NCBI RefSeq assembly: GCF_004138165.1
Contig: NZ_RYFF01000014.1
Span: 53,555 to 117,554, forward strand
DNA length: 64,000 bases
Direction: 5' to 3'
Origin: Candidatus Chloroploca sp. Khr17
GTDB lineage: Bacteria > Chloroflexota > Chloroflexia > Chloroflexales > Chloroflexaceae
A program made the position numbers and the translations under genes. The notes beneath the pieces are model-generated. The model was given only the letters and a program-made list of their open reading frames with translations, was not told where the DNA came from and did not search any database. Shown in pieces: positions 359 through 59,381 of this stretch. The first letter of the stretch is position 1. Every line of letters begins with the position of its first letter.

Positions 359-403
359 GGTGGGTACCAACGGCGGTATGACCTTGATCGAAGAGGAAGC
401 ACC

Positions 404-775
404 ATGAAGGTGTTGCTCGCCGAAGATGAACCAGATATTCGCTTGATCACGCGCCTTGCCCTCGAAGATGCTGGCTGTACCGTGGTCGCGGTTGCTGATG
501 GACAGGCTGCCGTAGAGGCTGCCATACGCGAGGGGTTTGATGTTGCGTTGCTTGATGTGATGATGCCCCGTATGGACGGCTTTGCAACCTGTACGGCACT
601 CCGCAGCCATGCAGAGACTCGTGCGCTGCCAATCATTTTTCTCACGGCGCGTTCGCAAGAGCCTGAAGTGCAACACGGGTTGGCTTTGGGTGCCGCTGGC
701 TATATCGTCAAACCATTTGATGTCTTTAGCCTGGTTGAGTTGATGACCCATATTCTTGAGCAGCAACAGCAGTAG
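404..775 (+). CDS. Single-domain response regulator (CheY-like receiver)
   Basis: This 123-residue protein is one receiver domain with no output domain. Visible key residues are the acidic pair E7/D8, the phosphoacceptor D51 in LLDVMMPRMDG, T81 in FLTAR and K103 in IVKPFD. Such stand-alone receivers shuttle phosphate or act by protein contacts. It is 9 bp upstream of a hybrid histidine kinase and is the likely partner of that kinase. The start ATG follows an AGAGGAAG-like ribosome site. Family assignment is secure; the partner is inferred from adjacency. Confidence 0.9.
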   Translation: MKVLLAEDEPDIRLITRLALEDAGCTVVAVADGQAAVEAAIREGFDVALLDVMMPRMDGFATCTALRSHAETRALPIIFLTARSQEPEVQHGLALGAAGYIVKPFDVFSLVELMTHILEQQQQ

Positions 776-784
776 ATAGAGCTT

Positions 785-2863
785 ATGGATGCACCTGCGA
801 CTAGCCTGTTGGATTTGACCCCTCAGATGCTGCACGCGCTCTATCAGGTGAGTCGCCAGCTTGCCCGGAGTCAGAGCGTGACGCAGATCGAGCGCACGCT
901 GGTCACGGGTCTGGGTGAGGTGGTGCATTGTACCGGGGTTGTCTGGTATACGCTGGTGGAGACCGAGGAGGGCGGGTATCTCGCCTATGGTGATAGCGTC
1001 GGGGCACCTGACGTCTTGATGCGCGATCAGCACATGATGCACGATCAGATCGTGCGTTGGCGTGTGCCGCTGGTGGAAGATGCGCGGGTGATACCAGTAG
1101 CGACCTTGCTCAACCGCCATCACGATCACCTCGCCGCATTTGAAGGGTGTGGGGCGCTCATCACCGGCGAAAAAAAGGTCTATGCACTTGTCGTCGTGCT
1201 CTGGTCAACGCACATACAGCGCCCCACTGGTTGGCAACAGGCATTGGTGAGTTTGGCCGAAGAGTGTGGCTATGGGTTGGATCGCCTTAGCGCGAAGCTT
1301 GGCCTTGCCACATTTATCCTGGATCAAATGGATCATTTTACGACGATCCGGGCCGAGCAAGAGCGGACGCGCGCCGTGATTGATGCAACGAACGATGCGA
1401 TTCTGATGATTGACGAACATCGGCGCCCAATCTTGATCAACCGACGGGCACGCTTCTTTTTTGGGGTCAAGGAACGTGAATTGATTGGCAAGAGTTTTGA
1501 ACAGTTGAGTCGTTTTCTCGCCCAGATCTTTGAACAGAGTACGACTTTCAATGACTGGTTGCTGCAATTACTTGGCTCACAGACAGCCCGCGATGTGCGC
1601 GAGTTTGCGCTCCACAGCCCCGAACGACGCCTGCTCCAGTGTTTTTCAGCCCCGGTCACCGATGTGCATGATCATTATCGTGGACGCATTTTGATCTTCC
1701 GCGACATCACGCGTGAGCGTGAAGTTGAGCGCATGAAGAACGATTTTGTTTCGACAGTAAGCCACGAGTTGCGCACCCCGCTGACGAGCATTCAGGGATC
1801 GCTTCAGCTTGTCCTTGGCAAACCAGGCAACACACGGTCAGCTTCGGCTAGCGAACTCTCGCCAAGGAACCTCGAGTTGCTCACGATTTCCTTGGCGAAT
1901 ACCGAACGCCTGATCCGCCTAATCAATGATATCCTCGATCTTGCCAAAATTGAACAGGGCCGGATTCAACTCAGGCGCGAACCAATCAGGCCTGAAGAAC
2001 TCTGCCAGAGTGCGGTGCGTGATATGCATGCGCTGGCGGCAACCAAGCAGATCAGGCTTGAAGTTGTGGCCACGCCAGGGCTACCGGCGGTTATGGCTGA
2101 CCGTGATCGCTCGATACAGGTCTTGATCAACCTGCTCTCGAATGCGATCAAATTTTCACCCGCTGGAGGCCGGGTGCTTTTGCGGGTGCAGCGTTATGAG
2201 AACGTGGTGTGTTTTGCTGTGCAGGATTGGGGGCGGGGCATTCCACCCGAACACCACGAGCGTGTCTTTCAGCGTTTTCAACAGCTCGACAGCTCAAGTA
2301 CGCGTGAATTCAGCGGCACCGGTCTGGGCCTGGCGATCAGCAAAACCCTGGTGGAAGAGCAGGGTGGCAGCATCTGGCTTGAAAGTGCGGCGGGGCAGGG
2401 CGCGACGTTTCACTTTACCGTACCGATTGTCCCCGGCAGTGAGGGGCTCGCTTTTTCTAGCGGTGAATCGATCCAGGCGCGGCATTCTCACATCCTGGTC
2501 GTGGAAGACGATCCGTATGTCCGTCCGGTCTTGATCCGTCTGCTGCAACGCTACGGCTTGCAAGTCACGCATGCCAACGACGGGTTTGAGGCCCTAGCAG
2601 CGATCAATTCGTTGCAACCCGATCTTGTGCTGCTTGATATCAAGATGCCAGGCATTGATGGGCTTGAAGTGCTCTATCGTATGCATCAGCATCCCGAAAT
2701 GGCGCACATTCCCGTTATTATTTTGACAGCCGATGATCTCAACGAGCATACCCGCGCTCGCGGTATGGCACTTGGTGCTCGTGCGTATCTCGAGAAACCC
2801 ATTGGCTCGGAACGACTGATCAACACGATCAATCGGGTACTCGCAGCAGAGGAACAGGGATGA
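785..2863 (+). CDS. Hybrid sensor histidine kinase (GAF-like, PAS, HisKA, HATPase, receiver)
   Basis: A 692-residue cytoplasmic kinase with no membrane segment. Order of domains: a GAF-like region (about 15-185), a PAS domain (about 195-312), HisKA with the phospho-accepting H327 in VSHELRTPLTS, a HATPase domain with the N box NLLSNAIKFSP and G boxes DWGRGIP and GTGLGLAIS (about 430-545), and a C-terminal receiver with phosphoacceptor D618 in LLDIKMPGIDG. It should sense an intracellular cue and pass phosphate to its own receiver and neighbouring receivers. Its stop overlaps the next start by 4 nt (ATGA), implying translational coupling. Confidence 0.9.
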   Translation: MDAPATSLLDLTPQMLHALYQVSRQLARSQSVTQIERTLVTGLGEVVHCTGVVWYTLVETEEGGYLAYGDSVGAPDVLMRDQHMMHDQIVRWRVPLVEDARVIPVATLLNRHHDHLAAFEGCGALITGEKKVYALVVVLWSTHIQRPTGWQQALVSLAEECGYGLDRLSAKLGLATFILDQMDHFTTIRAEQERTRAVIDATNDAILMIDEHRRPILINRRARFFFGVKERELIGKSFEQLSRFLAQIFEQSTTFNDWLLQLLGSQTARDVREFALHSPERRLLQCFSAPVTDVHDHYRGRILIFRDITREREVERMKNDFVSTVSHELRTPLTSIQGSLQLVLGKPGNTRSASASELSPRNLELLTISLANTERLIRLINDILDLAKIEQGRIQLRREPIRPEELCQSAVRDMHALAATKQIRLEVVATPGLPAVMADRDRSIQVLINLLSNAIKFSPAGGRVLLRVQRYENVVCFAVQDWGRGIPPEHHERVFQRFQQLDSSSTREFSGTGLGLAISKTLVEEQGGSIWLESAAGQGATFHFTVPIVPGSEGLAFSSGESIQARHSHILVVEDDPYVRPVLIRLLQRYGLQVTHANDGFEALAAINSLQPDLVLLDIKMPGIDGLEVLYRMHQHPEMAHIPVIILTADDLNEHTRARGMALGARAYLEKPIGSERLINTINRVLAAEEQG

Positions 2864-4488
2864 AGGCTACGCCACCGGAACTTGACCGTCTGACGCATGC
2901 GCTGATGTCTCCTCTCACGACCCTGCAAGGGACAGTGCAGTTGCTGCAGCGGCGGCTCAGCAATACGCCTGATGAGCAGCAAGCGTTGCTGCTTGCCGCG
3001 CTTGGGCGCAATGTGCAGCGCCTGCGCACCGTATGCGATCTCCTTTTGCAAAGCGCCTTCTTTGATGGCACGCACCTCCAGATTTGTGTTCTCCCGGAGG
3101 ATCTGGCCCATCATAGCGCTGCCAGCACGACAACAACCCACCAGGATCAGCCTGTTGCCCCTGCGCAAGCTGGACAACCACTCGGCGAAACCGTCACGTC
3201 TAGGGGGCATCAATGCGTGCTTGTGATTGCAGCCGCGACGAGCGGTGCTGCCTTGCTTCTTCCGTTGCTTCGCGAGCGTGGCTTTACCGTCGAACTGATC
3301 GAAACGACGACCAGAGGTATTGACCGTGCCCGTGAAGTTCGCCCGGCCCTTGTTCTCGTCGATCCGCATGTTGATCACGAGGCTGAAATAGCGCTCCAGA
3401 TCCTGAGTGAAGACCCCGAAACCAAAGGGATTGTGCTTGCCGTGCTGAGCAAGGAATTCCATTGGACAGGAACACGCCACCCTTTCATCATTGACCCAAT
3501 GCTCGCGCCCGAGCAAGCCGTTCCCTTGCTCACTCAGCATCTGAGCCCCAGCGAGAACCCGCTTCACTCGCGCCAGCGTATTCTGATTGTTGATGACGAA
3601 CCTGACATTGCCATGATGATCGCTGCCCAGTTTGAACGTGACGGCTTCCAGACGACGCAGGTTCATAGTGGCACCGAGGTCTTGCAGATTGTCCGCGAGC
3701 AACGCTTTGATCTTATTTTGCTTGACGTTATGTTGCCTGACATTGATGGCTTCACTGCCCTTGGAGGATTGCGTGCCCAGGCCGAAACGCAATTGACCCC
3801 GATTATCCTGCTTTCGGCGATCAATTCACCAATGGAAAAAGTTCGGGGGCTAGAGTTAGGGGCTGATGATTATATCACCAAGCCCTTCAGTGCTGCTGAG
3901 CTGAGTGCGCGGGTGCAGGCTGCGATGCGGCGGAGTGAACGCGAAGGCGGTGCCAATCCTTCGACCCGTCTCCCAGGCAATATTGCCATTGAGCGGGCGA
4001 TCAGCCAGCGCATCGACCAGGGTCTACCCTTTGCCGTGGGCTATTGCGATCTTGACAACTTCAAAGCCTACAACGACCGTTACGGCTTTCTCAAAGGTGA
4101 CGCCGTCATTCTGCGCACAGCACAGATTTTGCTTGATGCGATTCGTACGATGGGCAATCCTGATGATTTTGTTGGCCACATTGGTGGGGATGATTTCGTG
4201 GTCATCAGTACGCCCGACCGCATCGAGGCCATCTGCAGCACGGCAGTCGCTCGTTTTGATGCAACTGCGCCCTTTTTCTACGATCCAGCGACGCGGCAAC
4301 GAGGTTTTATTAGTGGGGTTGATCGTCAGGGTCAGCCTACCAGTTTTCCCCTGGCCAGCATCACGATCACGATCATCAGCAGCGCACGACATACGTTTCG
4401 TCATCCCGGCGAAGTCGCTCAGCGGTCTGCTGAAGGCAAAAAACGCGGCAAACAGATCCCAGGTAGCGTCTACCTGTTGCACGAATAA
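2860..4488 (+). CDS. HisKA-like / degenerate receiver / receiver / GGDEF-like signalling protein
   Basis: 542 residues. The N-terminus looks like a HisKA helical hairpin (THALMSPLTTLQG, aligning with the HELRTPLT box) but no HATPase domain follows. Residues about 115-225 resemble a receiver lacking the acidic pocket. A complete receiver follows (about 240-355, phosphoacceptor D289 in LLDVMLPDIDG, TKPFSAAEL). The C-terminus (about 370-480) is a GGDEF-type domain with the signature GGDDF at 442-446, preceded by FAVGYCDLDNFKAYND. It may make cyclic di-GMP or be a degenerate relative. The HisKA-like part probably docks on the upstream kinase, to which it is translationally coupled. Confidence 0.8.
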   Translation: MKATPPELDRLTHALMSPLTTLQGTVQLLQRRLSNTPDEQQALLLAALGRNVQRLRTVCDLLLQSAFFDGTHLQICVLPEDLAHHSAASTTTTHQDQPVAPAQAGQPLGETVTSRGHQCVLVIAAATSGAALLLPLLRERGFTVELIETTTRGIDRAREVRPALVLVDPHVDHEAEIALQILSEDPETKGIVLAVLSKEFHWTGTRHPFIIDPMLAPEQAVPLLTQHLSPSENPLHSRQRILIVDDEPDIAMMIAAQFERDGFQTTQVHSGTEVLQIVREQRFDLILLDVMLPDIDGFTALGGLRAQAETQLTPIILLSAINSPMEKVRGLELGADDYITKPFSAAELSARVQAAMRRSEREGGANPSTRLPGNIAIERAISQRIDQGLPFAVGYCDLDNFKAYNDRYGFLKGDAVILRTAQILLDAIRTMGNPDDFVGHIGGDDFVVISTPDRIEAICSTAVARFDATAPFFYDPATRQRGFISGVDRQGQPTSFPLASITITIISSARHTFRHPGEVAQRSAEGKKRGKQIPGSVYLLHE

Positions 4489-46524: not shown

Positions 46525-47460
46525 ATGGAGATGGTGAGTAGGCGGCGGCGGCATGTCATTGATCTTGATGAGATGACGGCGGCGGAGATCGAAGAAATCC
46601 TTGAGCTTACCGAGAGCATGAAAGAAGTGCTTGCGCGTGAGATCAAGCAAGTACCGACCTTGCGTGGGCGAACGGTCGTCAATATGTTTTTTGAGGATAG
46701 TACGCGGACGCGGATCAGCTTCGAGTTGGCGGCGAAAGCGTTGTCGGCGAATGTCGTCTCGTTTAGTGCGCGGGGAAGCAGTGTTGAAAAGGGTGAGTCA
46801 CTGATTGACACCGTGCGCACCTTGCAGGCGCTTGGGGCTGATATGGTGGTCATACGGCACAGCCAAGCGGGGGCACCGTATCTGGTGGCCCAGCATTTTG
46901 CGGGGGCGGTCATCAATGCAGGCGACGGACGGCATGCGCACCCGACGCAAGCCTTGCTTGACCTCTTTACGATTCGGGAGCGACTGGATCGCATCCGCGG
47001 GTTGAAGGTCGTGATTGTTGGCGACATCCTGCACAGTCGTGTCGCCCGTTCGGATCTGTGGGGGTTGACCCGACTGGGGGCGCATGTCACGCTTTGTGCG
47101 CCGCCAACCTTGCTGGGGCCGGCCCACTTTTGGACAGCGACGTGGCCGCAGATTAGCATCAGCCATCGACTTGACGAAGCGCTTGAAGGGGCCGACGTCG
47201 TGATGGTGTTGCGTCTGCAAAAAGAGCGGATGCATGCGGGCTTATTGCCTTCATTGCGCGAGTATAGTCGAGCCTATGCACTGACCCCTGAGCGGCTCGA
47301 GCGACTTGGGGCCGAGACATTGATCATGCATCCAGGGCCGATGAACGAAGGAGTCGAAATCTGGCCTGAGGCGGCGACGGCCCCCAACTCGGTGATTGAA
47401 GCCCAGGTAACCAACGGTGTCGCGGTACGGATGGCGTTACTCTACTGGCTGGCGGGATAG
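46525..47460 (+). CDS. pyrB: Aspartate carbamoyltransferase catalytic chain
   Basis: 311 residues. Carbamoyl-phosphate site FFEDSTRTRISFELAA, then GSSVEKGESLIDTVRTL, and HPTQALLDLFTIRER; aspartate side VMVLRLQKERM and MHPGPMNEGVEI. No pyrI regulatory chain is present. It catalyses the committed step of pyrimidine synthesis. pyrC follows 12 bp later. Confidence 0.95.
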   Translation: MEMVSRRRRHVIDLDEMTAAEIEEILELTESMKEVLAREIKQVPTLRGRTVVNMFFEDSTRTRISFELAAKALSANVVSFSARGSSVEKGESLIDTVRTLQALGADMVVIRHSQAGAPYLVAQHFAGAVINAGDGRHAHPTQALLDLFTIRERLDRIRGLKVVIVGDILHSRVARSDLWGLTRLGAHVTLCAPPTLLGPAHFWTATWPQISISHRLDEALEGADVVMVLRLQKERMHAGLLPSLREYSRAYALTPERLERLGAETLIMHPGPMNEGVEIWPEAATAPNSVIEAQVTNGVAVRMALLYWLAG

Positions 47461-47472
47461 ATGAGGTAAGCA

Positions 47473-48966
47473 ATGCGCTATATTATCAAACACGGATCAA
47501 TTATTGATCCTGCCCGTCGGGTCGCCACGGTGGGCGACATCGTTATCTGCGATGGTGTCGTCGAGCAAGTGAGCGAGTTGGCCGATTTGCATGCAGAGAC
47601 CGAAAGCATCGGGGATGACATCGAAATCATCAACGCACGCGGAGCGGTCATCGCCCCAGGTTTTACCGACTTGCACACGCATTTGCGGGAGCCTGGCGAA
47701 GAGCAGAAAGAGACGATCGCGACGGGCACGCTCGCGGCGGCGCGTGGAGGCTTCACGACCGTCTGTGCGATGCCGACGACGCGACCAACACCCGATACGG
47801 CAGCGGTCGTGCGCCATGTGCAGGCCCTGGCGCGACGCGAGGGGCATGTACGGGTTGATGTGATTGGTGCGTTGACCCAGGGATGCGCGGGCAAAGCGCT
47901 GGCCGATATGATCGAACTAAGCGAAGCGGGGTGCATTGCCTTTAGTGATGGAGGGCACCCGGTGGCTGATGCTGGTTTGATGCGCCAGGCAATGACCTAT
48001 GCCGCAGCGCTTGGCATTCCGGTGATGACCCATTGTGAAGAACCTGGTCTGACCCGAGGATGGGCGATGCACGAAGGGATTGTCAGCACCCGGCTGGGTT
48101 TGGCAGGCTTTCCTGCGGCAGCGGAAGAGGCGATGCTCGCGCGTGACATCGCGCTGGCGGAATTGACTGGGGTGCATTTGCATGTCTGCAATGTGAGCAC
48201 AGCGGGTGCGGTTGCGCTGCTGCGTACGGCACGGGCACGAGGGGTACGGATCACGGCTGAAGTCACGCCACATCATCTGACCCTCACGGATCGCTGGGTT
48301 CTGGGCAAACTTGTCCCGCACGAGACGGTGGCGGTGCCTGATGGTCCACCACCAGCGCCCTCATCATCGCGCAAAGGGCGGCGAAGTGCGCCTCCAGAGC
48401 AACTCATCCCCTCGTGGCTTGATCCAGCTTTGCTGGAACCGTATGACACAAGCACACGGGTGAGCCCACCCTTGCGTACGCAGACTGACGTTGATGCGCT
48501 GGTCGCGGGGTTACGGGACGGCACGATTGACGCGATTGCCACTGGGCATGCGCCGCAGGCGCGGGTGGATAAAGAGTGCGAATATGGGCTTGCCGCGCCG
48601 GGGATCAGCGGGCTCGAAACAGCGCTGGCGCTGGTACTCACGCTGGTCCATCGTGGCGAAATGGATCTGGTCAACCTGGTCGCGAAACTGACGGAAGGCC
48701 CGGCGCAGGTACTTGGGCGCTCGCCGGCGACCCTGCATCCTGGAGCGCGGGCGGACATCGTCATTTTTCAGCCTGATCAAGCCTGGAGGGTTGACGCAAG
48801 CCAATTTGCCTCGCGGGGGCGCAACACACCGCTGCATGGACAGCACCTGAAGGGCCAGGTGATGCTGACGATGGCGGCGGGCGAGATTGTCTTTCGGCGG
48901 GATCATTTTGGGCGGAGCGGGGAGCCTCGGCGGGCAACATCACGTCTGGACGGGTTTCTGGACTAG
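47473..48966 (+). CDS. pyrC: Dihydroorotase with an extra low-complexity insert
   Basis: 497 residues, about 60 more than usual class I enzymes. Metal motif TDLHTHLREPGEEQKET, then MTHCEEPGLTRG, LHVCNVSTAGAV, and EVTPHHLTLTD. At about 285-322 a Pro/Ser/Arg-rich insert (DGPPPAPSSSRKGRRSAPPE) precedes the substrate loop, which reads TRVSPPLRT instead of the usual N-P-P-L-R. The later ATGHAPQARVDKE segment holds the catalytic Asp-equivalent region but reads ATGHAP rather than ATDHAP. Confidence 0.9.
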   Translation: MRYIIKHGSIIDPARRVATVGDIVICDGVVEQVSELADLHAETESIGDDIEIINARGAVIAPGFTDLHTHLREPGEEQKETIATGTLAAARGGFTTVCAMPTTRPTPDTAAVVRHVQALARREGHVRVDVIGALTQGCAGKALADMIELSEAGCIAFSDGGHPVADAGLMRQAMTYAAALGIPVMTHCEEPGLTRGWAMHEGIVSTRLGLAGFPAAAEEAMLARDIALAELTGVHLHVCNVSTAGAVALLRTARARGVRITAEVTPHHLTLTDRWVLGKLVPHETVAVPDGPPPAPSSSRKGRRSAPPEQLIPSWLDPALLEPYDTSTRVSPPLRTQTDVDALVAGLRDGTIDAIATGHAPQARVDKECEYGLAAPGISGLETALALVLTLVHRGEMDLVNLVAKLTEGPAQVLGRSPATLHPGARADIVIFQPDQAWRVDASQFASRGRNTPLHGQHLKGQVMLTMAAGEIVFRRDHFGRSGEPRRATSRLDGFLD

Positions 48967-48969
48967 GCC

Positions 48970-49077
48970 GAATACCTTGCACATACGGCGGTTTTTTGAC
49001 GCAAAGGCGCAAAGGCGCAAAGGTTTTAGCGGAGGTGCGCTCACCCTTCGCAACTTAACGGCTTGGCGTGAGCTTCT
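48970..49077 (+). repeat. Dispersed repeat of the GACGCAAAGGCGC family
   Basis: It contains TTTTTTGACGCAAAGGCGCA and, further on, GGCTTGGCGTGAGCTT. The same order recurs at 53461-53561 and in part at 60437-60520. Confidence 0.75.
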
Positions 49078-49273
49078 TTGGATGGGATTGGGTCGGCTGT
49101 ATTTAGTTGTTAAGTCCAATAAATGGCTTACACGTAGGGTGCTGGCAAAGAGCCTGGGCGAGCCAGAGGGCGAGGAGAAAGGGAGCGCAAGGAATGGTGG
49201 TGACATGGCTTCTTGATGGGCTAAACAGGTACAATTCAGCGCCCTGACGGGTGAAGATAATCGGGGCAGAGAC

Positions 49274-49302
49274 TTGACAGCAGAATGACTTGTGTGTTAC
49301 CT
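49274..49302 (+). promoter_or_regulatory. Promoter of the ABC importer operon
   Basis: TTGACA (49274-49279), 17-nt spacer, TTACCT (49297-49302), or an 18-nt spacer to TACCTT. Transcription would give a leader of about 240 nt. The GTGTG-TTACCTTTA part closely resembles the pyr promoter at 45734-45762. Confidence 0.6.
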
Positions 49303-49547
49303 TTAACCAACCCTTAAACTAAGATTAATTGATTGGCCCTGCATGCCAACAAAAGAAAGAACGTGTAGGCAACGCTGCAACAACTCTGGTGGAGACCAGG
49401 GCTTTGTATGCATGGAGTGAGACAGACTCACTCTACTACTTTGGGATGATGAGGATGGGGGCGGTCTTCACAGCCTCCTTCACCTCTTCCAGCATAGCTG
49501 GTAGACATCTATATGGCTGATCGCTGTCTTGTCTACAGGAGGTACTC

Positions 49548-51398
49548 GTGTATCGCAAACGGCTCTTGACCTGGCTACTCGCCACGCTCGTGCTCACGAT
49601 GGTGCTCGCGGCGTGTGGCAGTGCCCCGCCCGCACAGGCTCCCACGTCTGAGCCACCCGCTGCTCAGGCAACCACGCCACCTTCGACCGAGGCCACTATG
49701 GCCCCACCGGCGGAGACTCCGACCGAAGCGCCGACCGAAGCGCCCGCTGCGACTGGGCGTGGTGCAGGTGATGTGCTGCGCATTCTTTACTGGCAGGCAC
49801 CCACGATTCTGAACACGCACCTTGCGGTTGGCACCAAAGACTGGGACGCATCGCGTCTGATTCTTGAGCCACTGGCCTCGATTGGCCCTGACGGAAAGCT
49901 CGTAGCCGAGCTGGTGACCGAGATTCCCACGGTTGAGAATGGAGGGATCGCTGAGGATCTGACCTCGATCACGTGGAAGCTGCGTGACGACATCAAGTGG
50001 TCAGATGGCAGTGACCTCACAGCGGCGGACGTCGTCTTCACGTATGAGTACTGTGCTGATGAAACAACGGCCTGCACGACAGCCAGTGCGTTTGACGGCA
50101 TTGCCTCGGTAGAAGCGGTGGATGACTACACCGTGAAGATCACCTGGGAGGCCCCCAACGCGAACTCATACAAGACCTTCACGAGCAACAGTGGGCGCAT
50201 CATTCAGAAGGCACAGTTTGAGAGCTGCATTGGTGCGGCTGCTTCGACTGACGCTGCCTGCCAGGCGGCCAATCTAGCGCCGATTGGCACTGGCCCGTAC
50301 AAGCTTGTTGACTTCCGTGTCGGCGATACGGTGCTCTATGACATCAACGAATTCTACCGCGACCCTGACAAGCCCTTCTTCCAGCGGGTCGAAATCAAGG
50401 GTGGTGGTGATGCACCTTCGGCAGCGCGTGCAGTCTTCCAGACAGGCGAAACCGACTGGGCCTGGAACTTGCAGGTTGAGGCTGCGGTCTTGCAGCAGCT
50501 GATCAACCAGGGTGGTCAGGGCGTACTGGTACCTTACAACACCGCCAATGTCGAGCGCATCTTGATCAACTTCACTAACGTTGATCCGGAGCTTGGTGAA
50601 GAGCGAGGCCAACTGAGCCAGCCGCACCCCTTCCTGACCGATTTGGCGGTGCGCCAAGCCCTCGCGTTATCGATTGATCGTCGGGCTATCTCGGAACAGC
50701 TCTATGGGCCGACCGGCTTCCCGACCTGTTCGTTGCTCTGGTACGAGCCATTTGCTTCAGGGCCAGACGACTTCTTTGGTGATTGTGAGCAGGATATTGA
50801 CGCTGCTAATGCGTTACTCGACGAAGCTGGTTGGGAACTTGGCGCGGATGGCGTTCGCGTCAAAGATGGCATTCGCCTGAGCGTCATCTTCCAGACGAGT
50901 GTGAACTCACTGCGCCAGAAGACCCAGGAGCTAATCAAGGCGAACTGGGAAGCGATTGGCGTAGAGACCGAACTGAAGAGTGTTGACGCCGGTGTCTTCT
51001 TTGGCAGCGATGTTGGCAACCCTGACAACATCGGGCACTTCTTTGCCGACATCCAGATGTACACCACCGGGGCAAGCGAGCCAGATCCCACATCGCACCT
51101 CTGCCAGTGGGTCTCGGAGCAAGCCTCGCAGAGCGAAAACGAGTGGCGTGGACAGAACAACATGCGTTGGCAGAACGCCGAGTATGATGCACTCTGTGCA
51201 GAGTTGCGGGCCGAGACCGACCCTGATCGGCAAGTCGAAATTGCACTCGCGATGGATGCGCTGATCAGTTCAGATGTTTCTATGATTCCATTGGTGGCAC
51301 GTCCGCGTGTGGCCGGTGCGAGCAACGCCCTCCGCGGTTACAACCCATCGGGTTGGGACTCGGAGTTGTGGGACGTAGCGAACTGGTATAAAGAGTAA
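49548..51398 (+). CDS. ABC transporter substrate-binding lipoprotein (family 5, peptide/nickel type)
   Basis: 616 residues from a GTG preceded by AGGAGG. Lipoprotein signal with lipobox LAAC, Cys23. A Pro/Thr/Ala/Glu-rich spacer (about 24-75) tethers the SBP_bac_5 domain: LEPLASIGPDGKLVAELV, SDGSDLTAADVVFTYEY, IGTGPYKLVDF, and VRQALALSIDRRAI. Ligand is unknown; the family binds peptides, nickel, sugars or opines. It is followed by a hairpin and two permease genes. Confidence 0.9.
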   Translation: MYRKRLLTWLLATLVLTMVLAACGSAPPAQAPTSEPPAAQATTPPSTEATMAPPAETPTEAPTEAPAATGRGAGDVLRILYWQAPTILNTHLAVGTKDWDASRLILEPLASIGPDGKLVAELVTEIPTVENGGIAEDLTSITWKLRDDIKWSDGSDLTAADVVFTYEYCADETTACTTASAFDGIASVEAVDDYTVKITWEAPNANSYKTFTSNSGRIIQKAQFESCIGAAASTDAACQAANLAPIGTGPYKLVDFRVGDTVLYDINEFYRDPDKPFFQRVEIKGGGDAPSAARAVFQTGETDWAWNLQVEAAVLQQLINQGGQGVLVPYNTANVERILINFTNVDPELGEERGQLSQPHPFLTDLAVRQALALSIDRRAISEQLYGPTGFPTCSLLWYEPFASGPDDFFGDCEQDIDAANALLDEAGWELGADGVRVKDGIRLSVIFQTSVNSLRQKTQELIKANWEAIGVETELKSVDAGVFFGSDVGNPDNIGHFFADIQMYTTGASEPDPTSHLCQWVSEQASQSENEWRGQNNMRWQNAEYDALCAELRAETDPDRQVEIALAMDALISSDVSMIPLVARPRVAGASNALRGYNPSGWDSELWDVANWYKE

Positions 51399-51406
51399 AG
51401 CTTTTG

Positions 51407-51447
51407 TTGGCCCCAAGCGGTCAGGATCACTGACCGCTTGGGGCCAA
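51407..51447 (+). terminator. Attenuating hairpin between binding protein and permeases
   Basis: A perfect 18-bp stem (51407-51424 and 51430-51447; TTGGCCCCAAGCGGTCAG) with loop GATCA. It lies 8 bp after the binding-protein stop and 14 bp before the permease start. Such hairpins let the binding protein be made in excess. Confidence 0.7.
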
Positions 51448-51461
51448 AGCAAGTGGTGCAT

Positions 51462-52421
51462 ATGGGTCGTTACATCATTCGGCGGATTTTGTTTGCCATC
51501 CCGACGCTGCTGGGCATCAGCCTGGTGATCTTTGCTGTCTTGGCGCTGGCACCTGGTGATCCACTCGCGCAGTTTGCCGCCGATCCATCGGTACCACCCG
51601 AGGTACGCGAGCAGATTCGCGTGTCGCTCGGGTTGAATGATCCCTGGTATATCCGCTATTTCAAATGGCTCGGGGCCTTGATGCGCGGCGACTGGGGTTT
51701 TTCGTTTGCGGCGCGCGTGCCGGTGATTGAGCTGATTGGGCAGCGGCTGCCGCAGACCTTGCAAGTGATTGGTCTAGCGTATATCATTTCGATTTGTTTG
51801 GCGATCCCAATTGGGATTATTTCGGCAGTGAAACCCTATTCAGCCTTTGATAATATTGCAACAACCTTTGCCTTTATTGGTTTTTCTGTACCCACCTTTT
51901 TTACCGGGCTTTTGCTTATCCTGATCTTCTCGGTCAACCTCCGCTGGCTGCCCTTTATCTACAACTCGACGCTGGAAGTTACCGACTGGAACAGCTTCTG
52001 GCAGCAGGTGAAGCAGATGATCATGCCAGTGACGGTGCTGGCCCTCTATCAGACAGGCACGCTGACCCGGTTTGTGCGGGCCTCGATGATGGAGAATCTG
52101 CCAATGGATTATACGCGGACGGCGCGGGCCAAAGGGTTGAACGAACGAAATGTGATTTTGTGGCACGTCTTGCGCAACAGCATGATTCCGGTGGCAACGC
52201 TGATCGCGCTTGGCGTACCGACGATCTTTACGGGGGCGATTGTCACCGAACAGATCTTTCGGATCAACGGCATTGGGGAGTTGCTGATCCGCTCGATCCA
52301 GAACTCAGACACCCCGGTGGTGATGGCGATCACCTTTATTTTTGCGGTGCTGGTCGTCAGTTTTAACTTGATTGTTGATGTGTTATATGGGGTTCTCGAT
52401 CCGAGAATCCGGTATGAGTAA
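51462..52421 (+). CDS. ABC transporter permease DppB/OppB-like
   Basis: 319 residues from the ATG at 51462; an upstream TTG at 51438 lies in the hairpin and is rejected. Six membrane helices; starts GRYIIRRILFAIPTLLGISL, and the EAA-type loop reads YTRTARAKGLNERNVILWHV. It forms a heterodimeric channel with the next gene product. Confidence 0.92.
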   Translation: MGRYIIRRILFAIPTLLGISLVIFAVLALAPGDPLAQFAADPSVPPEVREQIRVSLGLNDPWYIRYFKWLGALMRGDWGFSFAARVPVIELIGQRLPQTLQVIGLAYIISICLAIPIGIISAVKPYSAFDNIATTFAFIGFSVPTFFTGLLLILIFSVNLRWLPFIYNSTLEVTDWNSFWQQVKQMIMPVTVLALYQTGTLTRFVRASMMENLPMDYTRTARAKGLNERNVILWHVLRNSMIPVATLIALGVPTIFTGAIVTEQIFRINGIGELLIRSIQNSDTPVVMAITFIFAVLVVSFNLIVDVLYGVLDPRIRYE

Positions 52422-52431
52422 AGGAAGCGGC

Positions 52432-53397
52432 ATGTCAGAAGCCAATCCACCACTCGAAACAACGCCAGCAGCGTCGAGTCTGACCCTTCAGCAACTGTCA
52501 CGTCTACAACCAACGAAGGCACCACGGACGCTGTGGGGGGATGCGTGGCGGCGTTTCCGGCGGCACCGAATGGCCGTTGCCGGTGCGGTGATCTTTTGCT
52601 TGCTTGTGATCATGGTTGCCGTTGGGCCGCTCATTTATGGGGGTGACCCACGCAAAATTGATTTTGGCAAGAGCATGCTGCCGCCGAGTCTTGAGCATCC
52701 AATGGGCACCGATGATCTGGGGCGCGATATGCTGGCCCGCGTCATGCTTGGAGGGCGGGTGTCGCTCTCGGTTGGCGTTGCGGCGATGCTGATCTCGATT
52801 ACGGTTGGCACATTGATCGGGGCTATAGCTGGCTTTTTCGGTGGACGTATGGATAGCATCTTGATGCGTATCACCGATCTTTTTTTGGCCTTGCCTGTGG
52901 TACCCTTGCTCTTGCTTTTGATCTTCCTCTTTCGTGACACCTTGCGGCGTGCGCTTGGCCCAGAGACGGGCATTTTTGTTTTGATCGTCTTTGTGATCGG
53001 CATCTTGAACTGGATGACAGTTGCGCGGCTGGTACGGAGCTCCTTTCTTTCGTTGAAAGAGAAGGAATTTGTTGAAGCGGCGCGGGCCTTGGGCGTCACC
53101 GAGCCCAAGATCATGTTCAAGCATATTTTGCCGAACGCGCTGGGGCCGATCATCGTCGCGGCGACGATTGGCGTTGGGGCGGCGATCATCACCGAGTCGG
53201 TGCTTTCGTTCCTGGGGCTCGGGTTTCCGCCTGACGTACCAACGTGGGGGCGGCTGCTCTATGACGGGCAGAACTTTCTTGATTTTGCGGCGTGGATGGT
53301 CTTATTTCCCGGCTTTTTGATCTTTCTGGCGGTGCTGTGCATTAACTATGTGGGGGATGGCTTGCGCGACGCGCTTGATCCGCGTTCGCGGTTGTGA
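52432..53397 (+). CDS. ABC transporter permease DppC/OppC-like
   Basis: 321 residues from the ATG at 52432, which has AAAGGAAG 6 nt upstream; an ATG at 52414 overlaps the previous gene. Polar N-terminus, six membrane helices, MGTDDLGRDMLARVMLGGRVSL, and the EAA loop FVEAARALGVTEPKIMFKHI. A terminator follows and no ATPase genes are found, so the ATPases must come from elsewhere. Confidence 0.92.
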   Translation: MSEANPPLETTPAASSLTLQQLSRLQPTKAPRTLWGDAWRRFRRHRMAVAGAVIFCLLVIMVAVGPLIYGGDPRKIDFGKSMLPPSLEHPMGTDDLGRDMLARVMLGGRVSLSVGVAAMLISITVGTLIGAIAGFFGGRMDSILMRITDLFLALPVVPLLLLLIFLFRDTLRRALGPETGIFVLIVFVIGILNWMTVARLVRSSFLSLKEKEFVEAARALGVTEPKIMFKHILPNALGPIIVAATIGVGAAIITESVLSFLGLGFPPDVPTWGRLLYDGQNFLDFAAWMVLFPGFLIFLAVLCINYVGDGLRDALDPRSRL

Positions 53398-53431
53398 GTG
53401 GGGGTTTGTGCCGCGAGGAACTTTGCGCGAG

Positions 53432-53454
53432 AAACGCCAGCGATGCTGGCGTTT
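53432..53454 (+). terminator. Intrinsic terminator of the ABC importer operon
   Basis: AAACGCCAGC (53432-53441), loop GAT, GCTGGCGTTT (53445-53454), extending into TTCTC. It lies 34 bp after the last permease gene. Confidence 0.8.
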
Positions 53455-53460
53455 TTCTCA

Positions 53461-53561
53461 TTCAATACCTTGTAGATAAGGTGGTTTTTTTGACGCAAAC
53501 GCGCAGAGGCGCAGAGGTTTTGGGGTAGGTGTGCTAACCCTGGGCGGTTTGGCGTGAGCTT
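53461..53561 (+). repeat. Dispersed repeat of the GACGCAAAGGCGC family
   Basis: CAATACCTTGTAGATAAGG, then TTTTTTTGACGCAAACGCGC, and later GGTTTGGCGTGAGCTT. Same order as 48970-49077. It abuts the 79-bp repeat copy 2. Confidence 0.75.
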
Positions 53562-53578
53562 AGTAGTCGGTGAATTAC

Positions 53579-53657
53579 GTTTTCTGGCGTCCTCAGCCGT
53601 CCACGAATTGGGGCCACGAAGAAACGAAGAATTGCATCACAAAGCCTGGCTTCGTCT
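53579..53657 (+). repeat. 79-bp dispersed repeat, copy 2
   Basis: About 94 percent identical to 38652-38730 by my count (74 of 79). The remainder of 53398-53749 holds no recognisable gene. Confidence 0.85.
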
Positions 53658-53749
53658 CTTCGTGCGTGTTCTGTGTGGTCGGCGGCGCTCCCGGGAAATG
53701 TAGTTCCGAGACTACTTAGGGGCAAGGGATTGAGCCGAGGGGAGTTTGT

Positions 53750-54154
53750 ATGGGCGAGAAATTGACCTTGCGTCAGGAGATGGCGGCTGAGCGGTTGATG
53801 GAGGATGAGGGATTGACGGGTGATTTGCTTGATGAGCAGGCGGCACCGTTGATCCGATGGGCGACAGAGGCAGCGGTGAAGGTGGCGGCACCCGAGGCTT
53901 CGGAGGAGGAAGAGGAGGCCAGGTTGCGGGCGATTGTCCAGGCGGTGCGTCAGGTGGCACAGAGTGCGGGTGATGAACGTGACCCTGTGCGGCTGGTTGC
54001 GCTAGCCGAGGCGGCGTTGGCGGCGTTGCGCCCTGCGCGGCGGGTGCGACGGGTGCGCGGGACCCCGTCGCGTTTTCGTGCGCCGAGGGGGCACGGGCAA
54101 GCCGTGCCTGTACGACGGGGGCAGCGCCGGGCGGGGGGCGCGGGGCGGCGATGA
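53750..54154 (+). CDS. Small hypothetical protein running into a repeat tract
   Basis: 134 residues with GAGGGGAG 8 nt upstream. The first 95 residues look like a real acidic helical protein (TLRQEMAAERLMEDEGLTGD; APEASEEEEEARLRAIVQAV). The last 35 are Arg/Gly-rich and are encoded by the GGGCACGGGCAAGCCGTGCC repeats, so the original C-terminus may have been replaced by repeat insertion. No family is recognised. Confidence 0.45.
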   Translation: MGEKLTLRQEMAAERLMEDEGLTGDLLDEQAAPLIRWATEAAVKVAAPEASEEEEEARLRAIVQAVRQVAQSAGDERDPVRLVALAEAALAALRPARRVRRVRGTPSRFRAPRGHGQAVPVRRGQRRAGGAGRR

Positions 54155-54748: not shown

Positions 54749-56593
54749 TCATGCAGATTCTCCTGTTTTCAGTGGAAACGCCGCCCGCCGCAACAGCGCG
54801 CACCCAAACGGAATCAGCGTCTGGGTGGCGGCGTGCAGACGCAGCGGCGCATGTGACCAGGGCGCATCGCTGATATCCGCATCGCGTTCAAGTCTCAGGC
54901 CATACGCCGATTGCGCTTCATCTAGCAGCACCGACGCGCTGGCTTGCGCGAGGTCGCGGGGGAGCAGTTCTGCATCCCGAAAGTCGGCGCGAGGATAGGT
55001 TTTGATCGGTCGTGTAACATGGTCAACCGGCAAGACAAACTGCAACGGACCGCGCAATACAGCGTATTCGCCAGTGGGATACGGCTGCACGCGGACGGGA
55101 ACGGTGAAGGCAAGCGTGAAGGTTTCCGTCGCCGCCCAGGTTTTCTCAATAACGATGAAACCATTTTCTGCACGTGCTGGCGTACCGTTGATAGTTGCAG
55201 CCCGCGCCCACCCGGGGCAGCGCAGATACAGCGCAAAATTCACCGGTTGCTCTAGCGCTAGCGTGAAGCGCACGCTATCTTCAAATGGATAGTGCGTGTC
55301 TTCGGTTATGGTCACGCGCACGCCTTTGATTTCAGTCGTGAGTACACACGCGCCATACAATAGCGCGGCGAGGTCGTGCGCATTGGCTTTCAACCACATA
55401 CGGCTGATGTAATGCGGGAGTAAGCGTGTGGCGTTGGGGTTGCAACAGCACGCCACATCTTCATGCGTGGGCGAGAATTTGAAACGCCCATGTTTGTCGC
55501 ATAACAACGAATAACTATCGGGCCGGGCATTGGTTGCGGCCAGACGCGTGTCGGGCGTGAGGTAACTGACACCACGCCCATCGGGCAACCGAGCGCCTTG
55601 GGCGGCGTTGAAAGCCAACGTCTCAATCCAATCGCCCAGCGCAGGGTTGCGTAATTTTTGTGCGGCGCTGGTCAAGCTGAAAAGCAGTTCGGTCAGTGTG
55701 CAATACTCGTAGCCGACGTCGGGCGTGGGGAGACCGTGCAAGCTTTCATCACCAATCACCGCGCCGCTAGGCGTGGCGTAGAGGCGCAATTTGCGGAGGG
55801 CGGCCTCCATCAGCGGACGGTCCGCAGACGCAGCAAAGAGTAAAGCGCGCCAATGCTCGACGGTGTGAACAGCGTGACCGCGCAGCGGCAGCTGCGGGTT
55901 GGACAAATTGACGGGCGCGAAGTCGTCGTTCGGGTAAGGTGTGGGGAAGCGGCTGAAATCGTCAAACAACCACACGCCAAAATCAGCGTAACGCGTATCG
56001 CCGGTGAGCGCATAGAGCCATTCCACCACATCCACATAGCACAGGCCATGTGTCATACCGGTCAAGTCGTTGGGTGTGGCAGGACGGCGAAAATGCGGAC
56101 GTTGCGGGCCATAGTGTTTCAGAGTCAAATCCACTGCACGGCGCACAGCGGCAAGATAGCTTTCATTGCCCGTAAATTCGTAATACGTCAACAGCGGCAA
56201 CAATGCGCGACTCTGACCCCATAGTTCGCCATTTTCGTCGTCGCCGTGCTGATAACGCGAAGCGGACGAGTAAATACCGATATACCCATCTGAATCTTGC
56301 GTATTTTTCAGGGCTTCTAACAGAGTGGTCACGCGAGTTTTGTGTTCAGGCACATCCGCGAGGAACGCCATGAGCGTGTAGCCCCAGAGCCAGTTGCCGC
56401 GCGTTTCGCTATCCCACCACGCAAATTGTTGGGATGAAGACTCAATGCGGTTCTGAAAGAGATTGGTGGCAGCACGTTCAGTGAGGGAATCAAGGCAACT
56501 GGCGAAGCCTTCAGCAAGGTCATGGTGCAGTTGGACACGGAGCCAACCAGCAGGGCGGATAACTTTGAGGGGAAGAAAACTAAAGGTGGTCAC
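54749..56593 (-). CDS. GH127 glycoside hydrolase (beta-L-arabinofuranosidase family, formerly DUF1680)
   Basis: 614 residues, no signal peptide, so cytoplasmic. An (alpha/alpha)6 barrel (FAWWDSETRGNWLWGYTLMA, DGYIGIYS, GELWGQSRALLPLLTYYE) is followed by beta domains. The zinc/catalytic residues of GH127 are present: E296-x-C298 in GYEYCTLTELL and the C382-C383-C384 run in DVACCCNPNATR. It releases beta-L-arabinofuranose or a similar sugar. No sugar importer adjoins it. Confidence 0.85.
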   Translation of the reverse strand: MTTFSFLPLKVIRPAGWLRVQLHHDLAEGFASCLDSLTERAATNLFQNRIESSSQQFAWWDSETRGNWLWGYTLMAFLADVPEHKTRVTTLLEALKNTQDSDGYIGIYSSASRYQHGDDENGELWGQSRALLPLLTYYEFTGNESYLAAVRRAVDLTLKHYGPQRPHFRRPATPNDLTGMTHGLCYVDVVEWLYALTGDTRYADFGVWLFDDFSRFPTPYPNDDFAPVNLSNPQLPLRGHAVHTVEHWRALLFAASADRPLMEAALRKLRLYATPSGAVIGDESLHGLPTPDVGYEYCTLTELLFSLTSAAQKLRNPALGDWIETLAFNAAQGARLPDGRGVSYLTPDTRLAATNARPDSYSLLCDKHGRFKFSPTHEDVACCCNPNATRLLPHYISRMWLKANAHDLAALLYGACVLTTEIKGVRVTITEDTHYPFEDSVRFTLALEQPVNFALYLRCPGWARAATINGTPARAENGFIVIEKTWAATETFTLAFTVPVRVQPYPTGEYAVLRGPLQFVLPVDHVTRPIKTYPRADFRDAELLPRDLAQASASVLLDEAQSAYGLRLERDADISDAPWSHAPLRLHAATQTLIPFGCALLRRAAFPLKTGESA

Positions 56594-56632
56594 GATGAGT
56601 TCCTACTTGCTGTTTCTTTATCGGCGCATGCC

Positions 56633-56823
56633 GCCCAACGCCTGGCGTCAGGTGTGCCGCTGGCAGGTTCCATTGATGGCACGGCTGGAGGCACGCGACG
56701 GCATCCTAAAAAACGCCAGGTTTGGAGCCGCGCCAGCGGCGTCCGCTGCGAGCCGATGTTGGGCCGGGGATTGCCGCAGCGACGGGCGCGGGTGTGTCAG
56801 CGGCAGCAGGACGAGCTTTGATG
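56633..56823 (+). repeat. Structured repeat, copy 1 (attC-like ends)
   Basis: GCCCAAC (56633-56639), 16 nt, GCCGCTGGC (56656-56664), 67 nt, GCCAGCGGC (56732-56740), 17 nt, GTTGGGC (56758-56764). Both pairs are complementary and nested. The central part holds GGCACGCGACG and AAAAACGCCAGG. Similarity to copy 2 goes on through CGGGGATTG and AGCGACGGG to TTGATG. The outer boxes fit the attC patterns RYYYAAC and GTTRRRY, but the spacers are longer than in classical attC sites. Confidence 0.75.
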
Positions 56824-56848
56824 TTTGGGTACTGGGTTTATGGCATAG

Positions 56849-57178
56849 GTGAGCGGTAAAGCAACTTTATGCGCTTATGCGCCTGGGTCAGTTCCTTGGG
56901 AAATGGTCAATGCCTTTTCGGCGATGCTGAAACGAAAACGTGCCACGCTTGCGCAGGTGCGCCAGGCATGGAATGCCTATGAGCAAATACCGCTTCGTCT
57001 GGTAGAGGTAGAGACGGAACAGGTGCTCCGTATCGCTTCTCAGTACGATATATATGCCTATGATGCCTATTTTATCGTCTGTGCGCTCCAGCAAAAGAGT
57101 GCGCTCCTCACACTCGATGGTGGATTACGCCAGGCAGCAATCCAAGCAGGCGTGAAGATCGTGGAGGTCACCGCATGA
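56849..57178 (+). pseudogene. PIN-domain (VapC-like) toxin lacking its N-terminus
   Basis: 109 residues from a GTG with an in-frame stop directly before it. The sequence resembles a PIN protein from the second catalytic motif on: SVPWEMVNAFSAMLKRKR (Glu), YDAYFIVCALQQKSALLTLD (Asp residues). The first strand with the first catalytic Asp is missing; that place is taken by repeat copy 1. It overlaps the antitoxin start by 4 nt (ATGA). It is probably inactive. Confidence 0.65.
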
Positions 57179-57396
57179 AAGAATATACCTACTCTGAGGC
57201 CCGCCAACGGCTTGCAGATCTTTTGGATCTTGCGCAACGAGACGGTGGAGTACGCATCCGTCGCCGTGATGGAAGTGTATTTCTGATCTCGCAGGTTGTG
57301 ACGACGGCCTCACCATTAGATGTACCAGCGGTTGATTTACGGATGACGCGTGATGAGATTATTGATGTCATTCGTGAAGGACGGCGATTCACATAG
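57175..57396 (+). CDS. Phd/YefM-like antitoxin
   Basis: 73 residues: MKEYTYSEARQRLADLLDLA is the DNA-binding N-terminus of the Phd/YefM fold, then VRIRRRDGSVFLISQV, and an acidic/Arg C-terminal toxin-binding segment. It is translationally coupled to the truncated PIN gene; the toxin-first order is less common for this class. Confidence 0.75.
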   Translation: MKEYTYSEARQRLADLLDLAQRDGGVRIRRRDGSVFLISQVVTTASPLDVPAVDLRMTRDEIIDVIREGRRFT

Positions 57397-57458
57397 ACGG
57401 CTTTACGGGTTGAGGATTGACGACTGCTTTTCTACTCGATATATTCGACTGTCCAACG

Positions 57459-57509
57459 GTGCGGAATGTCCGGCTGTGCGGAATGTCCGGCTGTGCGGAA
57501 TGTCTGGTA
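57459..57509 (+). repeat. Three tandem 17-bp units
   Basis: GTGCGGAATGTCCGGCT occurs at 57459 and 57476; a third copy at 57493 diverges in its last bases. A 17-bp unit shifts frame each time, so it is unlikely to encode protein. Confidence 0.85.
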
Positions 57510-57540
57510 TGTCCGGCATGGGCGATACGGACTGAGGACG

Positions 57541-57733
57541 GCCCAACGCACAGCGTCAGTTGCGCCGCTGGCAGGCGTGTGAAGCGAGGCAAGCGTCGGC
57601 ACGCGACGACGGTGTAAAAACGCCAGGTTCCGGGACGCGCCAGCGGCGTCACCTGCAGGGCGCGGTTGGGCCGGGGATTGACGAAGCGACGGGCCGACGG
57701 ACGCGTTTGCAGGGAGGACAACGGGCCTTGATG
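57541..57733 (+). repeat. Structured repeat, copy 2 (attC-like ends)
   Basis: GCCCAAC (57541-57547), 16 nt, GCCGCTGGC (57564-57572), 66 nt, GCCAGCGGC (57639-57647), 17 nt, GTTGGGC (57665-57671). The spacing equals that of copy 1 within one base, although intervening bases differ. The following CGGGGATTGACGAAGCGACG matches copy 1 with few changes. Confidence 0.75.
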
Positions 57734-57844
57734 ACCGATACCGAAGTTATCGGCGCAGAGGTACGACACAACAAATTTATAAGCAGATACTTGCATGAAG
57801 AAAGGGCTCCATACATATCTGTATATGTTTATGCCTCTCGATGT

Positions 57845-58165
57845 CTACGCACTATTCCGCTTTTTGGGCGGTATGACACCTTGCTGGAGTTCTTGAAGCA
57901 CTGCTTCAAGCGAGCGATTTTGGCTCCGGTCGCGCGGAGCACGTTCTTTCGGTGTGGGTGGCATATCCGCAAGCGCGAGAATAGGAAGATTGAGAGCATC
58001 CTGAAAGGAGCGAATATCCTCTGCGAGATCTTCGATGGAGCGCCCAATTGGCTCAACCGCATGCGCCGTACAGCCAATAATTGCGCCCTTCTCATCATAA
58101 AAGACTTCACGGACGATATAGTCGCCATCATCTTCGCGAAAGACGCGATAATTCCAGGTGATCAT
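57845..58165 (-). CDS. Conserved small protein paired with a RelE-like toxin (possible antitoxin)
   Basis: 106 residues. Starts MITWNYRVFREDDGDYIVRE and has a compact alpha/beta N-terminus (YDEKGAIIGCTAHAVEPIG; SIEDLAEDIRSFQDALNLPI) and a charged disordered tail. I recall this family in cyanobacteria and Chloroflexota, often without assigned function. Its start overlaps the stop of the RelE-like gene by 4 nt, which suggests it is the cognate antitoxin, in reversed order. That is inference. Confidence 0.6.
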   Translation of the reverse strand: MITWNYRVFREDDGDYIVREVFYDEKGAIIGCTAHAVEPIGRSIEDLAEDIRSFQDALNLPILALADMPPTPKERAPRDRSQNRSLEAVLQELQQGVIPPKKRNSA

Positions 58166-58455
58166 ACATCCTCCTCTCGGCCACGAAAGAAGAAGCGGTT
58201 ACCACGCTTCTCACCAATCCGTTGAATTTCCACAATGCGCACAACCGTATCAACAGAATACAGAATACGAAAGTGCCGAACGCGTAACTCCCACTCAGCG
58301 ATGTCGTTTGGGCGCATTGGCTTACGGTTCCGTGCTTGTGTCACCGGTTCGTAGCGTAATTGCTGATTAATTGTCTCAGCGATTTCTTGTTGCTCATGCT
58401 TACGGAACCAACGCAAGTCATCAATAGCTTGCGGTGTAAGCTCAATATCGTACAT
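58162..58455 (-). CDS. RelE/ParE-family toxin-like protein
   Basis: 97 residues: MYDIELTPQAIDDLRWFRKH at the start; AEWELRVRHFRILYSVD and VRIVEIQRIGEKRGNRFF match the beta-sheet core of RelE/ParE proteins. RelE-type toxins cleave mRNA on the ribosome; ParE-type target gyrase. Which activity applies is unclear. It is the first gene of a two-gene unit. Confidence 0.75.
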   Translation of the reverse strand: MYDIELTPQAIDDLRWFRKHEQQEIAETINQQLRYEPVTQARNRKPMRPNDIAEWELRVRHFRILYSVDTVVRIVEIQRIGEKRGNRFFFRGREEDV

Positions 58456-58489
58456 CGAGTCACGTATTTCTTATCCAAACACGCTCCTT

Positions 58490-59381
58490 TCAAGAGTGTA
58501 CCATAGATTTGATGCGCGGCAGGTTGACGATGCGAGACCACTCCAGGATATCGCTCCAGTAGCTGAGCGGGAAGCCCAGTTTGAACCATGCCGTGCTGAT
58601 CTTGCCTGTGAAGGGGTACTCGGCGCGGGCCAGGTTATGGCGCAGCAGAAACTGTGCGCCCTGCTCGATGGCTTGCTGGAGCAGTGGGGTGCGCGCGGAC
58701 GTCGGCACGTCGGCCAGCGCCTTCATCGCTTTGGTTGCGCCCCAGGCGCACGGCTGGCCCGCGTTGATCGCGCAGGCGAAGGCTGGGCCACTGGTACCGG
58801 ATTGGTCGTAGCGAGTTGATCGCGCAGGCGAAGGCTGGGCCACTGGTACCGGATTGGTCGTAGCGAATTGGCTCCCCGCCCGTGATCGCGTGCGTCTGTC
58901 ACGCCAACGCCTGCTGCGCGCGCGGGTCATCCAAGCAACCCAGTCGGATCAGGCTGGCGAGCAGATTGCCGTTCAGGCAATGGAGGACGTTCCTTGGCAC
59001 GGGGTTGTTGGTATTGCTGCATGCGAATCCGCCATTGGCGGCAATCGTGTGGTTGAGTAGATACTCACAGCCGCGCTGTACGCGTTCATCATGTGGGTCA
59101 GCGCCGAGCTCGCTGAGCAAGATGATCTGCCAGGCGGTGCCGCGATACTTGCCATAGCCGCCGCCGGGTTTCTGCCAGTAGCCGTCGGGATGTTGCGCCT
59201 CGAGAATTGCGGGCACCGGGCCGTACTGCATCACCGCCGCCTGCGCAGCAACGACCTCGGCAGCATCGGCGGGCTGATCGAGCAGATCACGTAACGCGAA
59301 CAAGTGAACGCCTGGATTGACGGAATCCGGCTCTAGCAACCAGGCGCGTGCGTCGCCATGCACGGCGTTCAGCCAGGACAT
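58490..59381 (-). pseudogene. Prenyltransferase/squalene-oxidase-repeat (toroid) protein, broken
   Basis: Two pieces of one gene. The 5' part (59381 to 58899) has LEAQHPDGYWQKPGGGYGKY and a hydrophobic toroid pattern; it ends at TGA 58899-58901. Reading on in the same frame gives THAITGGEPIRYDQSGTSG, so that TGA is a premature stop. A 52-bp tandem duplication (58763-58814 and 58815-58866) then shifts the frame; the 3' part continues GQPCAWGATKAMKALADVP. Removing one duplicate copy restores the frame. Confidence 0.75.
58763..58866 (+). repeat. 52-bp perfect tandem duplication inside a pseudogene
   Basis: Copies 58763-58814 and 58815-58866 are identical (start GTTGATCGCGCAGGCGAAGG). Length 52 is not a multiple of three, so it causes a frameshift in the host gene. 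Confidence 0.92.

Follow-up and report, generated by a model that had tools for sequence, protein, structure and literature searches.

The repeats and the genes around them

The window, by which we mean the whole stretch of 64,000 nucleotides of Candidatus Chloroploca sp. Khr17 that was analysed, carries two copies of a structured repeat, 776 nt apart, with genes on either side and between them (Table 1). Their coordinates, the boxes and the spacing of these (7-16-9-67/66-9-17-7) are as a first-pass annotation had described them, and an alignment of the two copies has identical bases in 98 of its 135 columns. A search for the exact pattern formed by boxes one to three gave four matches in the 64 kb, namely the two copies, each on both strands (the copies are palindromic); there was no match elsewhere in the window and none in 100 dinucleotide shuffles. 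The outer boxes GCCCAAC and GTTGGGC had been likened to attC end boxes, and in both copies they do fit R'' (RYYYAAC) and R' (GTTRRRY) and are complementary to each other.

Table 1. Coordinates of features in the window, with notes on each
Feature	Position	Strand	Remarks
Conserved chromosomal flank	46666–54092		Interrupted by an extra 247 nt at 53481–53727
GH127-type gene	54749–56593	-	PF07944, PF20736; start codon 40 nt past R' of attC site 1
attC site 1	56633–56764	-	R'' 56758–56764, R' 56633–56639; attC of the PIN/Phd cassette
Stem of attC site 1	56732–56740 and 56656–56664		GCCGCTGGC/GCCAGCGGC
PIN/Phd cassette body	56765–57540	-	Genes run against the attC direction
PIN-domain toxin remnant	56849–57178	+	Gene start missing; PF01850 positions 33–118 of 120; junction 56876/56878
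Phd/YefM-like antitoxin ORF	57175–57396	+	PF02604, 25.2 bits, below the cut-off of 29.8
125 nt without a match in the G003 cassette	57416–57540		17-nt direct repeats at 57447–57517, before copy 2
attC site 2	57541–57671	-	R'' 57665–57671, R' 57541–57547; likely attC of the ParE-like cassette
ORF partnering the ParE-like toxin	57845–58165	-	No Pfam match
ParE/RelE-like toxin	58162–58455	-	PF05016, 28.2 bits, cut-off 23; same direction as attC
Host gene fragment	58490–58930	-	Likeness to G001 and G002 stops at 58541, the start of the cassette region; the homologues continue there

One gene pair lies between the copies, as annotated: a PIN match and a Phd/YefM-like ORF. The PIN gene had been thought truncated exactly at the end of copy 1, and this is incorrect. 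Compared with its homologue in a genome of another genus of the same family (L235 in G003), which covers PF01850 positions 1–118, about 175 nt are absent at 56876/56878, that is 112 nt past copy 1, and the intervening 112-nt stretch is 85% identical to the G003 cassette. There (G003:C121) the PIN/Phd cassette likewise lies between two attC sites of the same orientation and is 89% identical over 538 nt; likeness stops 3 nt from R' of the next site, while at the other end it starts about 100 nt inside the G003 cassette. The window's PIN toxin gene is broken, and intact relatives exist; we infer that the pair in the window is a decayed cassette with a toxin gene that lacks its start. The ParE-like toxin and its partner ORF precede copy 2 in the attC direction and are likely its cassette; DNA homologous to this region is found inside a cassette array of genome G006. 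The GH127-type gene is either the last cassette or the first flanking gene.

The flank carries repeats of other kinds. The 247 nt at 53481–53727 are absent from the genomes of two sister species, G001 (probably Candidatus Chloroploca mongolica) and G002 (probably Candidatus Chloroploca asiatica), where the flanks are contiguous, and most of the stretch (approximately 53559–53722) is multicopy in the host genome; it is likely a small mobile repeat for which both relatives show the empty site. Another repeat of about 120–135 nt, at 48959–49095, has many matches in the host genome (G000), G001 and G002.

attC anatomy and pairing in the repeat family

Eight full copies from the host genome were used to build a covariance model, R1, so that the scores of those eight sites are circular. 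Both window sites are among the eight; they score 132.3 (site 1) and 130.7 bits (site 2) on the minus strand and 25.6 and 23.7 bits on the plus strand. A larger set of 72 sites comprises 20 from the host genome and 52 from 16 of 20 searched stretches (six of seven relatives). Alignment A3 holds 63 of these 72, from seven genomes, nine low-scoring or odd-length sites having been removed by hand. For the 46-row match set, which includes the window sites, opposite-strand rows, rows below 47 bits and one duplicate stretch were dropped; for the 99-row match set, all rows below 50 bits.

R' starts with GTT in 65 of the 72 sites, and mean column identity across the 63 aligned sites is 71%. The stem in this alignment consists of a 7-bp R box, a spacer, 4 bp, a two-against-one step ([C/T]G versus A), 6 bp, a single bulged A and 10 bp, and it closes a central loop of about 70 nt. 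The spacer between the R and L boxes is unpaired, with 3–5 nt on each side. Inside the R boxes lie the L'' and L' boxes, where A3 columns 13–25 pair with columns 122–132 and compensatory changes are present (column pair 14–131, for example, is GC in 29 sites and CG in 23). The inner spacers had been described as unlike those of classical attC, because the L boxes were overlooked; once these are placed the spacers are classical, apart from one base, the extrahelical G.

Covariation was counted on the 63 sites as cells altered on both sides of a pair. There are 97 such cells, as compared with a mean of 37.2 in shuffles that ignore the relatedness of the sites, and none of 500 shuffles gave as many; slid structures gave 3–20. 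The inner 4-bp helix was spotted by eye on the same alignment that tested it, and leaving it out gives 58 cells versus 22.0 in shuffles (0 of 500 as high). Our first structure, which had a 9-nt spacer and in which the base at the place of the expected extrahelical G was paired (57 of 63), was dropped, as it accounted for 58 cells versus 97 with columns 13–16/129–132. By a weaker measure, 10 pairs had a both-side change versus 7.8 in shuffles (56/500), and when only the eight sites were used covariation was not clearly above shuffles (84/500).

Two one-base asymmetries are seen on the R''-L'' arm. They lie 8 nt apart, and we take them as the counterpart of the extrahelical bases of attC; PMC2727003 describes two or three of these on this arm, with G in L'' and T 6–8 nt further on. 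The T (A on the top strand) is kept in 60 of 63 sites. The G (C on the top strand) is the one feature in which attC membership is not clean: 43 of 63 sites have it and 19 have A (T on the top strand). The repeats are otherwise like the VCR attC of the V. cholerae chromosomal integron (PMC2727003) in their R and L boxes, unpaired central spacer, extrahelical R''-L'' bases and large loop, which has 65 nt in VCR2/1. They differ from it in the first extrahelical base, in a loop with recurrent consensus words of its own (AACCTGG, TTTTT and GTGCC), and in the host, likely a Chloroflexota genus. When folded as single-stranded DNA, each copy does slightly better in its top strand than in its bottom strand, the one that integrases use. 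Copy 2 is below its shuffles (z -2.86 top, -2.46 bottom); copy 1, whose L box pairs poorly, folds no better than shuffles (z -1.17 top, -0.86 bottom), and for that reason folding energy is not used here as evidence.

Integrase genes and their association with the sites

It had been proposed that an integron or other tyrosine recombinase be sought elsewhere in the genome. The host genome (6.38 Mb, 171 contigs) gave 13 tyrosine recombinase matches, and a complete IntI is present on contig C102, at 69697–70638. The protein has 325 aa and no internal stop, and its motifs GSGLRL, CHTFRH and IYTHV, at 138, 272 and 307, presumably hold the catalytic residues. It scores 474 bits to TIGR02249 (positions 1–314 of 315, cut-off 265) and, over residues 13–324, 336 bits to V. 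cholerae IntI4, of which a crystal structure exists (PDB 2a3v). No IntI match was found on the contig of the window (C28), which the assembly does not join to C102.

A BLAST search of the host genome with 56600–56780 gave at least 36 matches at E <= 1, self included (40 of 60 candidates scored), several of them arranged in rows, on contigs C85, C102, C136 and C72. With R1 there were at least 42 matches at E <= 10 and at least 25 at E <= 0.01 (150 of 1768 candidates scored). The strongest site, with 139.9 bits and itself used to build R1, is 1.4 kb away from intI and on the opposite strand; a ParE-like gene and a partner ORF lie between the two.

The same genome holds a second intI in three pieces (C147:46907–47817), its reading frame apparently broken, and, near intI and the array on C102, a 673-aa ORF (L054 11173–13194), two parts of which match the tyrosine-recombinase family. 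Two palindromes, at L054 8724–8818 (95 nt) and L070 5384–5482 (99 nt), have attC-like R boxes but are of a type that differs from the 132-nt family; they are possibly cassettes from other lineages.

We surveyed 100 genomes, the host's own and 99 relatives; as part of the candidates was scored, the numbers of sites are minimum values. At least 42 genomes have R1 matches at E <= 0.01, and IntI exceeds its cut-off in 28, although draft genomes can miss intI. Sites are present in 27 of the 28 genomes with IntI and in 15 of the 72 without (Fisher p 1e-12, relatedness uncorrected); when the own genome and the class-level genomes are left out, the numbers are 26 of 27 and 15 of 54 (p 1e-9). R1, although built from the host genome alone, also matched at 24 of 80 named intI loci of other phyla at E <= 0.01, a scan that had no intI-free control loci, and at E <= 0.1 the matches at intI loci are on the strand opposite intI in 50 of 54 cases.

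Cassette arrays, sister species and alternative readings

Between same-strand sites the sequence and the genes vary; whether copies flank varied single genes was a check that the first-pass annotation had suggested. Of 41 pairs of adjacent sites 39 share a strand, and same-strand neighbours have coordinate gaps of 42 to 3110. Ten cassette ORFs were scanned against Pfam: five have a family that exceeds its cut-off (Uma2, DUF1828/1829, LysE, PIN_8 and PIN) and five have none; toxin-antitoxin systems are among the commonest cassette functions according to part of a 2021 review (PMC8618304). The longest ORF runs along the attC direction in 26 of 38 cassette bodies and against it in 12, among them the PIN/Phd body. 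The first three positions past R' are conserved at 0.73, 0.77 and 0.49 bits and the next 37 at 0.22 or less, whereas before R'' it fades across about 20 nt. The contrast is modest when mean identity over the first 20 nt is taken (0.306 after, 0.336 before, background 0.25). By analogy with the integron family, the bottom strand of each attC would fold into a hairpin, the integrase would cut the R' box between G and TT, and the gene pair that the two sites enclose would be excised or inserted as a circle.

The sister species show cassettes that differ at a common place. The flank at 46666–54092 is 90–92% identical to G001:C87, and 49211–54092 likewise to G002:C39; in both genomes it comes after cassette arrays of the same orientation as the window's. 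At the window-equivalent place the array of G002 has one extra 988-nt cassette compared with G001. Left of the shared site the two are 100% identical over 200 nt. Right of R', G001 is 99% identical to the sequence after the extra G002 cassette and 23% identical to that after the shared site, and the switch falls within CGTTGGGCGG, a 10-nt stretch that is common to all three sites and holds R' (one case). Furthermore, three cassettes A, B and C are reordered, A standing before B and C in G001 and after C in G002. Despite the identical left flank, the shared attC (L231 4717–4848 versus L232 1143–1274) differs between the genomes, mainly in the loop, which resembles that of a site in the same array (L231 7562–7694), as if attC exchange pieces.

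On the intI side, too, all three Chloroploca species have a conserved flank, in pieces of 81–95% identity. Because the array flank and the intI side are both conserved in the sister species, the window looks like an array end, and we read it as probably the eroded far end of a chromosomal integron. What marks sedentary chromosomal integrons is found here, alike attC sites and a place common to related species, with the two ends on separate contigs; attC tend to be conserved within such integrons (PMC8618304, in part). A protein of the intI-side flank was used to look for a join between C102 and C28: it is present in 2 of 14 relative genomes (some of them single-contig), both Chloroploca, and gave no such join. 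We are highly confident that the repeats match attC in all but one tested feature and probably stand at the far end of a chromosomal integron, the complete intI of which is on another contig of the genome. The annotation had offered an integron-like cassette as one of three options, and this option is supported by intI, the attC anatomy, compensation, the varied arrays and the switch at R'. Random placement relative to genes with no compensatory changes, which it had named as the refuting outcome, is not what was found across genomes.

The main alternative to an end of the main array is a small stray CALIN, a cluster that off-target cassette insertion by the distant integrase would have seeded. 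By definition a CALIN has two or more attC within 4 kb and lacks intI, and the window pair has both properties, being less than 4 kb apart on a contig without an IntI match. This contig ends 6.3 kb from the pair, however, so that the pair could be one piece of a complete integron. In favour of a stray cluster, further strong sites occur in the interior of long contigs, e.g. C92 and C136, the likeness of a host-like gene to relatives stops at 58541, next to the cassettes, and off-target insertion is named as one origin of CALINs (PMC8618304). Against this, 46666–54092 follows same-orientation arrays in both sisters, which looks like an inherited array end, and the intI side is conserved in all three species; we regard a stray cluster as unlikely. 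A structured RNA, encoded by the repeats and acting on the adjacent gene pair, would fit the conserved pairing with its compensatory changes, but this reading was rejected as very improbable, since an Rfam search of 56000–58600 gave two chance-level matches (best E 0.3, far under gathering scores), the copies adjoin unrelated genes and the repeats are associated with intI. Least credible of all, and likewise rejected, is a non-autonomous transposable element (MITE or REP-like) spread by an unrelated transposase, for although the repeats are dispersed, palindromic and multicopy, they stand in rows on one strand, the sequence and genes that separate them vary, the switch between species lies at R' and their presence tracks IntI.

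Integrons in Chloroflexota are already known: intI genes were reported in Chloroflexi in 2008 (seen in part of PMC2426708) and Chloroflexota is in the phylum list of the 2021 review (PMC8618304, in part). Our literature search, which ran without most subscription journals, found no paper on integrons of Chloroploca, and for integron together with Chloroflexaceae only a wastewater resistome study. The repeats share with the taxon-specific attC models of Ghaly et al. 2021 (PMC8352920) a lineage-wide attC with a conserved structure that a covariance model can capture. As far as the part of that paper available goes, its 11 listed taxa are without Chloroflexota and 'Chloroflex' occurs 0 times in the main text; R1 would thus supply an attC model for a lineage missing from this set. 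A repeat that looked odd by eye is thereby explained as part of a known gene-capture system.

Finally, the integrase differs between the sisters. G001:C86 (71741 bases) agrees in length and integrase position with NZ_SIJK02000032.1 of Candidatus Chloroploca mongolica, and G002:C119 (38711 bases) with NZ_LYXE01000120.1 of Candidatus Chloroploca asiatica. Unlike the complete protein of the window species and its match to IntI4 (PDB 2a3v), the IntI match in these two genomes covers only residues 1–257 of 325 (L280 8880–10888 and L281 303–2536, respectively), and neither the motif at 272 nor that at 307 was found. Next to the break lie other DNA and an attC-like site of 24.5 bits, and the break region is 98% identical between G001 and G002, with surroundings of 93–94%. 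It is possible, though we put it forward tentatively and think it more doubtful than not, that Candidatus Chloroploca is a natural before-and-after experiment: DNA with an attC-like site would have replaced the catalytic end of IntI in two sisters, so that cargo silenced the integron, while the window species, keeping the complete enzyme, should still shuffle cassettes via Chloroflexales-specific attC with a relaxed first strand-choosing bulge, its G being present in only two thirds of sites. With complete and truncated integrases at the same place in sister species, the decay of arrays after integrase loss can be studied.
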